A stretch of DNA of 64,000 nucleotides, taken from contig NC_015572.1 of NCBI RefSeq assembly GCF_000214665.1, forward strand, positions 3,038,001-3,102,000, in the 5' to 3' direction. This document shows positions 61,883-63,995 of this stretch, in pieces. The notes under the pieces are model-generated. The model saw nothing but the letters and a program-made list of their open reading frames with translations, was not told the origin of the DNA and made no database searches. The position numbers and the translations under genes are program-made. The DNA is from Methylomonas methanica MC09 (lineage in GTDB: Bacteria; Pseudomonadota; Gammaproteobacteria; Methylococcales; Methylomonadaceae). Every line of letters begins with the position of its first letter. Position 1 is the first letter of the stretch.

Positions 61883-62839
61883 TCAGCCACCTTGTAAATC
61901 AAAGAATTTTGCGCGGTGGTAGTCAAGGTAAAGCAAATGCCGATCAGCAATCCAGCGCAAACACAGATCATCGTTTAGCCCCAGAATATCCCGCTGATTT
62001 TGACTTAATTTCGGTGAAATCAGCATTTGTCCCTTATCGTCAAAACTAATCAGAAATCGGTCGAATAGCGCATCCAAATGGGCACAGAGTAGGAAACCGT
62101 TAAAAACGTCCAGGCGTTCTGTATCGGACTTACATTCGGCCCATGGTTTGGCGTGGCTAGCCCGTAGCACCTCCGTCACATCGACACCCGTCACTGCGCA
62201 AGCGCCGCCCCAGTATTGCAGCATTCCGTCTCTAAATTTTTGCTGCCCGATACGCTGGCGTACTATCCGTTCGATTTCAGTGGCTTTGGTTTCGGCATCT
62301 GCGAAATGGGTTAACTCTTCGGTTACCTGCTTGTCATAATCGACGGCTAATTGATTTGGCAGGGATTGAGCTAGTTTGGATGCTCGTCGCAGGAAAATAG
62401 CTAGATCATTGATTTGTAGCAGAACAAACTTACGATCCGGACGAGTCGCATTTGGAAAACACCGAGTCAACTCGGAATAGAGATACTTGGAGACCTCTGA
62501 ATGAATATCGACAATCCATCGGTAATTGTCTTCGGCAATCAACGCTTGAATACCGTGCAGGGCTGATCCTAACAAAACCCCGTCATCATGGCTTGAAAGA
62601 ATATTTTCAAAGCCATTTTCGTGTCCTGTTTTTTCAATTAAAGCACGTTTCAGGATGTTCAAATTAGCAAGATAAGTCGTTGCGTATGTCTGTCGTAGAA
62701 TTCTGCGTGGAAAGCCTAATCCTTCTCGGCATTTGTAGTAACGTGCCTGTTCTGGGCAAACTGAACGGTTGGCAAAACCAGCCTGGGCAAATGCATCCTG
62801 GAGCACTGACTCATCAGAAATTCCCGCCAGTAAGGCCAA
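61883..62839 (-). CDS. HNH endonuclease
   Basis: Up to 318 aa; start uncertain. The C-terminal domain is a clear HNH nuclease: RIGQQKFRDGMLQYWGGACA, VTGVDVTEVLRASHAKPWAE, FNGFLLCAHLDALFDRFLIS. The N-terminal part (ILRQTYATTYLANLNILKRA, IQALIAEDNYRWIVDIHSEV) is helical. Start candidates are TTG 62839 and GTG 62806; both lie inside the secB-like gene in another frame, an overlap of up to 124 bases. This family is often found in restriction or defence loci. It is the last gene of the hicA-hicB-secB run. Confidence 0.8.
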   Translation of the reverse strand: MALLAGISDESVLQDAFAQAGFANRSVCPEQARYYKCREGLGFPRRILRQTYATTYLANLNILKRALIEKTGHENGFENILSSHDDGVLLGSALHGIQALIAEDNYRWIVDIHSEVSKYLYSELTRCFPNATRPDRKFVLLQINDLAIFLRRASKLAQSLPNQLAVDYDKQVTEELTHFADAETKATEIERIVRQRIGQQKFRDGMLQYWGGACAVTGVDVTEVLRASHAKPWAECKSDTERLDVFNGFLLCAHLDALFDRFLISFDDKGQMLISPKLSQNQRDILGLNDDLCLRWIADRHLLYLDYHRAKFFDLQGG

Positions 62840-63201
62840 ACATGATAGCTGGCGTTTTTCAGGGCGTATTCGTCGATACAGGATTGCTCCAGTTGCTCAT
62901 CAATCGTATATTCCGCCACAAATTCGGCTTCGATAAAGGCTCGGACAGACTTATCTTCTTCCTCAATATTCGGATCAACAAGACGAATACCCAATTCAAT
63001 AAACACGCGCACTAGCCATTGGTTTTCGTCAACCATCGCCAACTGTGTTTGTCTAACGGTGTGCTTGGTTTGGGTTACCAATTTTTCAGTGTCTTGGTCA
63101 TACTTTGGCTCAAAGTCCCCAACACATTGCGCAACACTGCTTCTTTGATAAACGTCGTGGATTTTCAGTGTATCAATGGCTTTTTGTAGATTTGCGTTCA
63201 T
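62716..63201 (-). CDS. SecB-like chaperone of a toxin-antitoxin-chaperone module
   Basis: 161 aa; the ATG at 63201-63199 overlaps the hicB stop (TGATG). The protein starts MNANLQKAIDTLKIHDVYQR and has the SecB-like ending YALKNASYHVWPYWREFLMS then QCSRMHLPRLVLPTVQFAQ; the PYWREF..S..SRM.LP...LP..QF pattern is close to the C-terminal helix and strand of SecB. Central beta strands (VRVFIELGIRLVDPNIEEED, AFIEAEFVAEYTID) fit the fold. SecB-like chaperones beside toxin-antitoxin genes (Rv1957 type) stabilise the antitoxin. It follows hicA-hicB directly. Confidence 0.75.
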   Translation of the reverse strand: MNANLQKAIDTLKIHDVYQRSSVAQCVGDFEPKYDQDTEKLVTQTKHTVRQTQLAMVDENQWLVRVFIELGIRLVDPNIEEEDKSVRAFIEAEFVAEYTIDEQLEQSCIDEYALKNASYHVWPYWREFLMSQCSRMHLPRLVLPTVQFAQNRHVTTNAEKD

Positions 63202-63680
63202 CAGGCGTATTGTTTTTCTAACGCATTGGGTTCGGAAGTGCTGATTAACCGCAAATGCTTGTACTGCTTTTCGGTTTGACTCGCCAGTTGCCATGATGTG
63301 TTTTCACTACTATTTCGAGCTTCTAAACCCTGCGCATAACCGGCGTAATAATTCAGGATATTGGTCAGATGCTGATTCAAACTTACCCCTTCCATATCGG
63401 CAGCCTGAGCAAGCGAGCGATGTAAACTTTTAGCCAAACGTAACGTCACACGACCACTGTATTCGTCAGCCGGAATCATAGGTGATGGTATGGCTTTACC
63501 TTGAGCAGCCAACATTTCTGCTGTGACCTCAATGGTGTCGATAGCGAGAGCATAGGCTTCCTCAAAACTGTCTGCGTATTCTGCAACGTCAGGTAATTCC
63601 GCAACACGGGCCTCGTAACAATGTTCGCCATCGAACCAGCCTTTGCGCACGGTAATATTGTAATTTGAAGGATCTATCAT
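63201..63680 (-). CDS. hicB: HicB-family antitoxin with C-terminal extension
   Basis: 159 aa. The N-terminal HicB domain has YNITVRKGWFDGEHCYEARV, ELPDVAEYADSFEEAYALAI; the ribbon-helix-helix domain has GRVTLRLAKSLHRSLAQAAD and SLNQHLTNILNYYAG. About 40 extra residues follow (ARNSSENTSWQLASQTEK ... EPNALEKQYA), longer than plain HicB. Such tails make antitoxins depend on a SecB-like chaperone in known chaperone-linked systems. ATGA overlap with hicA. Confidence 0.85.
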   Translation of the reverse strand: MIDPSNYNITVRKGWFDGEHCYEARVAELPDVAEYADSFEEAYALAIDTIEVTAEMLAAQGKAIPSPMIPADEYSGRVTLRLAKSLHRSLAQAADMEGVSLNQHLTNILNYYAGYAQGLEARNSSENTSWQLASQTEKQYKHLRLISTSEPNALEKQYA

Positions 63681-63973
63681 GCTGTTTTCTCCAGATAAGC
63701 CTCAAGCTCATCGTTATACTGCCTGAGAACTTTAATAATCTTGCCTATGTAACCAGGTTTGATTTCGGGATTTTTGCCATGACCGCAGTTGAACGAACCG
63801 CTCATAAACGAAGGCAGTCCTGGATGGACAAAAATTTTATGCCCACCTTGCTTGCCGTCCCGCACTTCGAAACCTAAGTCTTGTAATAGGCTTTTCACTT
63901 CTTCACAGCACAAATTAGTCTTATGCTGCTGTAATGTTTCAATTGCCGATTGGATACGTAGTTTAGCACTCAT
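63677..63973 (-). CDS. hicA: HicA-family toxin
   Basis: 98 aa. The core has VKSLLQDLGFEVRDGKQGGH then KIFVHPGLPSFM; the conserved His in GGHKIFVHP fits the mRNA interferase active site. The dsRBD-like fold with its C-terminal helix (IKPGYIGKIIKVLRQYNDEL) is complete, and it is longer than the shortest HicA proteins. It is the first gene of the operon, immediately downstream of a palindrome. Confidence 0.85.
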   Translation of the reverse strand: MSAKLRIQSAIETLQQHKTNLCCEEVKSLLQDLGFEVRDGKQGGHKIFVHPGLPSFMSGSFNCGHGKNPEIKPGYIGKIIKVLRQYNDELEAYLEKTA

Positions 63974-63975
63974 TG

Positions 63976-63995
63976 TGACACCATATATAGTGTCA
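63976..63995. promoter_or_regulatory. Palindromic operator of the hicA operon
   Basis: TGACACCATATATAGTGTCA on the plus strand (63976-63995): six-base arms TGACAC/GTGTCA around an AT-rich centre, two bases upstream of the hicA ATG. On the minus strand it includes TTGACA at its start. It is probably bound by the ribbon-helix-helix part of HicB for autoregulation. Confidence 0.65.

Follow-up and report, generated by a model that had tools for sequence, protein, structure and literature searches.

The hicA, hicB and secB-like genes near the end of the window, by which we mean the whole 64,000-nucleotide stretch of Methylomonas methanica MC09 DNA analysed here, very probably form a type II toxin-antitoxin-chaperone (TAC) operon. 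We put the probability of this reading, in which a SecB-like chaperone bound to the tail of HicB would be needed for this antitoxin to inhibit HicA, at roughly 0.96. HicA-family toxins are mRNA-cleaving RNases. HicB would bind and inhibit HicA, its ribbon-helix-helix domain probably repressing the operon at a palindrome in front of hicA, while a 41-residue C-terminal tail would cause the antitoxin to fail unless the co-encoded SecB-like chaperone binds that tail. Because the tail would make HicB fail without its chaperone, loss or titration of the latter would free HicA, and phage or another stress may be what activates the system.

On sequence grounds, the locus is the “Mmet-TAC” of M. methanica MC09 (Metme_2813, Metme_2812 and the SecB-like gene) reported by Bordes et al. 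2016 (PMC5105189), with no difference in its genes. The annealing parts of five primers printed in that paper match the window exactly, at 63952-63973, 63201-63224 (with a shorter form, 63201-63222), 63327-63348 and 63304-63326; the printed hicAB amplicon of 773 nt corresponds to the span 63201-63973, and the chimera primers meet at 63326/63327, which is where the chaperone-addiction (ChAD) tail starts. According to the text of that paper, Mmet-TAC was cloned and assayed in E. coli, where inhibition of the toxin needs the SecB-like chaperone. Grafting HicB residues 119-159 onto another antitoxin made it dependent on the Mmet chaperone, which also substitutes for E. coli SecB in a delta-secB cold-sensitivity test and cross-reacts with the V. 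cholerae chaperone of an MqsRA system (PMC5105189). Since the very locus was tested, the HicAB-SecB TAC finding is correct but already known, in the strongest sense, and the sequence-only reading, which had proposed a toxin-antitoxin-chaperone module with a chaperone-addiction tail, finds its support in print. The published assays are heterologous ones in E. coli, and the same function in M. methanica itself is presumed. A literature search on the organism, SecB and toxin-antitoxin systems returned nothing beyond Bordes 2016, the main text of which, its supplementary alignments aside, contains none of the terms HNH, defence, methylase, operator or palindrom-.

Genes, tail and operator

The features of the module are as follows.

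63976-63995, minus strand: operator-like palindrome, 2 nt upstream of the hicA ATG
63677-63973, minus strand: hicA toxin gene, 98 aa, PF07927; Metme_2813 by primer match
63201-63680, minus strand: hicB antitoxin gene, 159 aa, PF05534; Metme_2812 by primer match; from N- to C-terminus an alpha/beta part, a ribbon-helix-helix domain and a C-terminal tail
63204-63326, minus strand: ChAD tail of HicB, residues 119-159 (41 aa)
62716-63201, minus strand: gene of the SecB-like TAC chaperone, 161 aa, with a SecB fold; nearest solved relative Rv1957 with ChAD peptide (5mtw)
61883-62662, minus strand: HNH_2 endonuclease gene, 259 aa, TTG start, PF13391 at 49.6 bits, following secB

Gene order, overlaps and palindrome are all as the sequence-only reading had described them. 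The hicB ATG (63680) sits on the hicA TGA (63677-63679) in an ATGA overlap, the secB ATG (63201) sits on the hicB TGA (63201-63203) in a TGATG overlap, and the palindrome of the form TGACAC-N8-GTGTCA reads TGACAC-TATATATG-GTGTCA at 63976-63995 (full element TGACACTATATATGGTGTCA). HicA passes PF07927 (32.9 bits, cut-off 27) and HicB passes PF05534 (39.8 bits, cut-off 21), and by these two matches the pair is a HicAB, i.e., a HicA family toxin with a HicB that carries a ribbon-helix-helix DNA-binding domain; a profile of the HicB family (A2, 36 sequences) matched no PDB chain at E <= 0.01. Overlapping genes, Pfam matches and the SecB fold together show a type II toxin-antitoxin (TA) pair that shares its operon with a SecB homologue. 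A chance set of open reading frames is ruled out by the homologues, the conservation of the operator and the published work. The longer HNH frame, reaching to 62839 and overlapping secB by 124 nt, is an artefact of taking the first start codon; the start is placed at the TTG at 62662 because relatives begin at the matching residue. About 20 residues precede the Pfam domain in HicA; both TAC relatives and chaperone-less loci (L070-L072, for example) include HicA proteins of similar length (92-99 aa). A DDE transposase gene (PF13701, 58783-60147) downstream of the module is a sign of a mobile neighbourhood.

The proposal that the 161-aa protein is SecB-like stood as regards its fold and failed the Pfam check. 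Its score against PF02556 is 13.6 bits, under the cut-off of 26, whereas its family profile (A1, built from 24 sequences) has the Rv1957 SecB-like chaperone 5mtw as sole PDB match at E <= 0.01 (E 9e-5). A single-chain model (mean pLDDT 89.8) likewise finds 5mtw as its best PDB match in a structure search (E 1.4e-7), and the top 19 PDB hits are all chains of SecB or Rv1957 (E 1.4e-7 to 1.9e-5). The ordinary SecB of this genome lies elsewhere and, at 197.8 bits, is the sole PF02556 match genome-wide at E <= 0.001. On the strength of the low Pfam score one might take the 161-aa protein to be something other than a SecB relative, and the tail to be an ordinary HicB extension. We find this scarcely credible in view of the fold and profile matches and of the co-occurrence of tail and chaperone, and the published chaperone-dependence assay already refutes it (PMC5105189).

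A related architecture is known from the Rv1955-Rv1957 HigBA1-SecB TAC (5mtw; PMC6377645), in which a TA pair, a SecB-like chaperone and a C-terminal ChAD on the antitoxin likewise occur together, the pair being HigBA there and HicAB in the window; the Mmet and Mtb chaperones are reported to be 17% identical (PMC5105189). The main ChAD contacts described for the Rv1957 structure are W, R and Y (PMC6377645), the same kinds of residue as in the window tail at another spacing: the Rv1957 ChAD is a short W-x-R-x3-Y peptide, while 28 residues run from the W to the last Y of the window tail.

That tail had been put at about 40 residues after the ribbon-helix-helix domain and measures 41. Most of the HicB body is modelled confidently and the tail poorly, with pLDDT below 50 at residues 128-140 and 157-159, and the low confidence across 119-159 is consistent with disorder. 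Comparison of sequences across the order shows that the tail accompanies the chaperone. HicB matches at E <= 1e-15 across 311 Methylococcales genomes gave 14 loci, five of which have a SecB-like gene in the examined flank by profile search (L067, L068, L069, L074 and L076); all five HicB proteins are tailed, the W being missing from the tails of L074 and L076. As the sequence-only reading had anticipated for HicB without a chaperone neighbour, none of the nine remaining loci carries the ChAD-type tail of the window, with the reservation that L080 has a short frame uninformative for the tail and that coverage downstream of L070 is 193 bases only. HicB stops soon after the ribbon-helix-helix domain in L070-L073, L075 and L079, and L077 and L078, which have no SecB neighbour, possess a different long C-terminus. 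The alignment thus yields what is expected of a TAC, an antitoxin C-terminal extension missing from chaperone-less homologues (5/5 vs 0/9).

The chaperone-less HicAB loci L070-L073 are 70-71% identical in DNA to the window over hicA and/or the hicB body, with an operator of the same kind in L070-L072; their HicB proteins, of 117-122 aa, end where the window ChAD would begin, and the bases examined (193 for L070) hold no secB. DNA homology between the window and L070-L073 and L079 stops at query position 665-672, and the ChAD starts at 675. As proof of a junction in the chaperone-less loci this border was dropped, since homology to the tailed, more distant L028, L085 and L086 stops at 672-674 too; how fast the tail diverges therefore accounts for the border as much as a missing tail does. 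A read-through match had hinted that L070 and L073 keep remains of a lost tail after their stops; this idea was likewise discarded, no ChAD-like stretch being visible by eye in frame after the stop. Among 120 listed of 369 matching HicB proteins, the neighbours of which are not known, 75 are at least 150 aa long, 9 have 131-149 aa and 36 have at most 130.

The palindrome, one of six twenty-base palindromes in the window whose arms match at 9 or more of 10 positions, is more than chance, judging by its conservation. In 15 of 18 distinct hicA loci (the start codons of L028 and L086 being set by alignment), an element agreeing with it in 15 to 20 of 20 bases stands 1-4 nt before the start codon. 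It is identical to that of the window in L004 and L034, differs by one base in L038, L028, L031, L085, L086 and L087, and has lost half of its right arm in L075. L049 has the element too, bringing the count to 16 of 18, chaperone-less loci among them; L077 has a diverged element by eye, and none was found near the mechanical start of L050. Because the chaperone-less L070-L072 share it, the operator is a feature of HicAB rather than of the chaperone, and it is the presumed binding site of HicB. A promoter-like pair lies just upstream of the palindrome (L002 5996-6025), in a 401-base region with 4 promoter-like matches vs 1.2 in shuffles.

The surrounding defence-type operon

Upstream of hicA, beyond the window end (L002:6243-18988), are four defence-type genes on the strand of hicA, all in one direction.

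Upstream of hicA, same strand: ATPase, best PADLOC match LmuB (79 bits)
Upstream of hicA, same strand: Eco57I/DrmMI-like methylase
Upstream of hicA, same strand: SNF2 helicase, DpdE-like (698 bits)
Upstream of hicA, same strand: helicase with an MZB zinc-binding domain, best PADLOC match DruE (169 bits)

We describe this operon as DISARM/Druantia-like by its apparent gene content, the best models coming from several systems, and claim no membership. Comparison among genomes shows the TAC, as far as such sequence matches define it, to sit in a helicase-methylase-ATPase-HNH defence-type operon, a setting for which we found no earlier print. The SNF2 gene was found at E <= 1e-150 in 18 of the 311 genomes, and the 12 with at least 76% identity were analysed. 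HicAB-SecB stands in the operon of the window, G159 and G072, and MqsRA-SecB in that of G026. In G046, a contig bearing MqsRA-SecB-HNH starts inside the methylase match and the SNF2 contig ends inside the methylase, from which we infer a single locus. Other TA pairs also occur: a PIN-type VapBC-like pair precedes HNH in G114 and G215, a VapBC-like pair lies between two frames each matching part of the methylase in G085 (L153:7956-13412), and a TacA-GNAT pair lies between SNF2 and methylase in G060, which has MqsRA-SecB-HNH on another contig. The operon of G184, of the same genus, has no TA pair, and the contigs of G171 and G267 end too early to decide. A TA pair is thus contained in 9 of 10 decidable operon copies, window included, and five of these pairs belong to a TAC (G046 by inference over two contigs); this is a raw count, uncorrected for general TA density.

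The HNH gene has matches at E <= 1e-20 in 26 of the 311 genomes. Its 13 strong relatives (E <= 1e-60, window included) cover at least 251 of the 259 residues in 12 cases and 187 in G125; the gene before HNH is a TAC secB in six, a VapBC-like pair in five, the ATPase directly in one and another gene in one. In several loci the HNH_2 gene stays behind secB though the TA pair in front changes.

What the module does in this operon can be read in more than one way. It may serve chiefly in phage defence, guarding or backing up the operon, such that phage attack on the chaperone or antitoxin would free HicA and lead to abortive infection; the defence-type genes upstream on the same strand and the recurrence of TA pairs and TACs in the operon copies argue for this, as do CmdTAC and the E. 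coli mqsRAC TAC, which are reported to defend against phage (PMC9519451, PMC11618068). These share the TAC architecture of the window with other toxins and antitoxins, and the window chaperone matches PADLOC PD-T4-9_C, the third part of CmdTAC (24 bits, E 8.1e-6); defence has been demonstrated for them, and for the module of the window it would be suggested by context. We hold this reading tentatively, as the palindrome and promoter-like site point to separate control of hicA, a literature search found no phage test of this locus, and the varying kinds and positions of the TA pairs, with none at all in G184, fit selfish or stabilising cargo equally well. On the other hand, the TA modules might be only stabilising (addiction) cargo, protecting the defence operon from loss with no phage sensing, a reading that we hold just as tentatively, at somewhat less than even odds. 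TA families that differ by place (ATPase/HNH, the two methylase frames of G085, SNF2/methylase in G060) and a TA-free operon within the genus are consistent with cargo; the persistence of HNH gene and chaperone side by side while the TA changes is not readily so, nor is the reported response of related TACs to phage (PMC9519451, PMC11618068). At the slot in the defence-type operon, the question of whether TACs are guards of defence systems or merely stabilise them can be put concretely.

A tail pattern common to HicB and MqsA

The bodies of HicB and MqsA belong to different families (PF05534 vs PF15731), and yet comparison shows their non-homologous proteins to end in tails that follow, at the level of sequence, a common W...LRVVxSS...Y pattern; in the HicB tail of the window the core reads LRLI. 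We found no earlier print of it, a literature search on a ChAD consensus across SecB, MqsA and HicB, including what could be consulted of PMC6377645, having turned up no such pattern. Such a pattern would matter because the published account of the tested ChADs finds no significant similarity among them (PMC5105189); with it, ChADs become findable by sequence and partner specificity testable residue by residue.

Tail sets were drawn from 120 listed of 369 HicB matches and 120 listed of 1564 MqsA matches, plus loci. Length filters gave 90 HicB and 152 MqsA sequences, of which 52 and 98 were left at 60% tail identity; five loci (L037, L067, L075, L077 and L078) were excluded by name, and the length filter removed L050 and L076, which have 146 aa. 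Each family's tails are recognized by the profile of the other. With the profile of the 98 MqsA tails, 41 of 52 HicB tails score above the 99th percentile of 10400 shuffled tails and 29 exceed the highest shuffle (14.0 bits), window HicB reaching 17.8 bits. With the HicB-tail profile, 77 of 98 MqsA tails lie above the 99th percentile and 53 exceed the highest of 19600 shuffles (13.1 bits). The tails at or below the 99th percentile, 11 of 52 and 21 of 98, respectively, do not fit, and these counts are not independent because tails within a family are related by descent. A single profile-profile comparison of the two tail sets gives a probability of 95.4 (E 1.8e-8).

Control C-termini from 683 other reading frames of at least 100 aa (many of them not genes) reach maxima of 8.4 and 6.8 bits, and two of the three best controls for the MqsA profile are HTH-type antitoxins before a SecB-like gene (L060, L061). 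Among the 36 HicB proteins of at most 130 aa the top scores are 19.2 and 33.9 bits, these high values most likely coming from P0105, a 112-aa entry that is N-terminally cut with its tail present. The expression W...[LIVF]x[VLI][VI]x[ST]...[YW] is found in 31 of 52 HicB tails (shuffles: mean 0.05, highest 2) and in 52 of 98 MqsA tails (mean 0.12, highest 1); the cross-profile test is cleaner than this count because the expression was written after seeing the tails.

The core of the pattern occurs in none of seven HTH-type (HigA-like) TAC tails, for which 3, 33, 35, 65, 242, 391 and 935 of 2000 own shuffles score as high. The Methylococcales loci L052-L056, L060, L061 and L063 combine a short gene, a gene resembling HTH antitoxins and a more divergent SecB-like gene. 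They look HigBA-like by eye, some antitoxin tails having W and PxLxL[VI] stretches; in a Pfam search on L052 and L060, the short gene of L052 had no match.

Tail and chaperone similarity are correlated across 377 HicB-MqsA locus pairs (13 by 29, after 17 loci were dropped as duplicates), with r = 0.42; none of 5000 permutations of rows and columns, a test that leaves phylogeny unmodelled, gave a value as high. Mean tail similarity over the pairs is only slightly higher than in shuffles (0.103 vs 0.086).

Toxin-antitoxin pairs in front of the resident chaperone

When 42 SecB-like proteins are placed on a tree, the HicAB/MqsRA label has to change 4 times, with at least two of the changes forced by well-supported branches, against 11.3 on average with shuffled labels; exchange of TA pairs is therefore real but not frequent. 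The clade of seven that includes the window (support 100/99) has three HicAB and four MqsRA members. For the MqsRA loci L003 (from Crenothrix, with a chaperone 78% identical to that of M. methanica), L005 and L042, DNA homology to the window starts at query position 791-798, and secB starts at 800. The simplest reading of these alignments is that in close relatives MqsRA stands in place of HicAB at the hicB/secB junction with secB kept, for which we found no earlier print: either TA pair and tail would have been swapped in front of a chaperone that remained in place, or the other way round. Joint movement of tail with chaperone from HicAB to MqsRA loci or back was considered as well, and the DNA comparison showed no such case; since tails diverge fast at the DNA level, travel of the tail with the chaperone is not strictly excluded. 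The pattern common to HicB and MqsA tails may thus reflect shared descent or convergence.

We lean slightly toward a broader reading, in which the ChAD would be a portable linear code, W...(R)P-x-L-R-V-V-x-S-S...Y/W, found in at least two non-homologous families, with TA pairs recombined at the antitoxin/secB junction and, in the Methylococcales, placed in the TA slot of the DISARM/Druantia-like operon. Whole TA pairs would be exchangeable because antitoxins of either family would present the resident SecB-like chaperone with one and the same code. If true, the portable code would account for the cross-talk that has been reported for the chaperones of Mmet-HicAB and Vcho-MqsRA (PMC5105189), and the common pattern suggests that nature repeatedly carried out the chaperone/TA exchange done in the laboratory.

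Several further loci deserve mention. The same MqsRA-SecB locus appears near both ends of one Halomonas ventosae record (L017 and L018), perhaps an assembly overlap of a circular chromosome, and in L032 a short contig assigned to an actinomycete (Nakamurella) carries an MqsRA-SecB TAC, possibly through contamination. Partial secB matches in which no TA pair was found occur in L029/L047 (query residues 80-158) and L048 (88-154, with an internal stop). An HNH fragment adjoins the partial secB in L029/L047, and these partial-secB loci look like decayed TACs.
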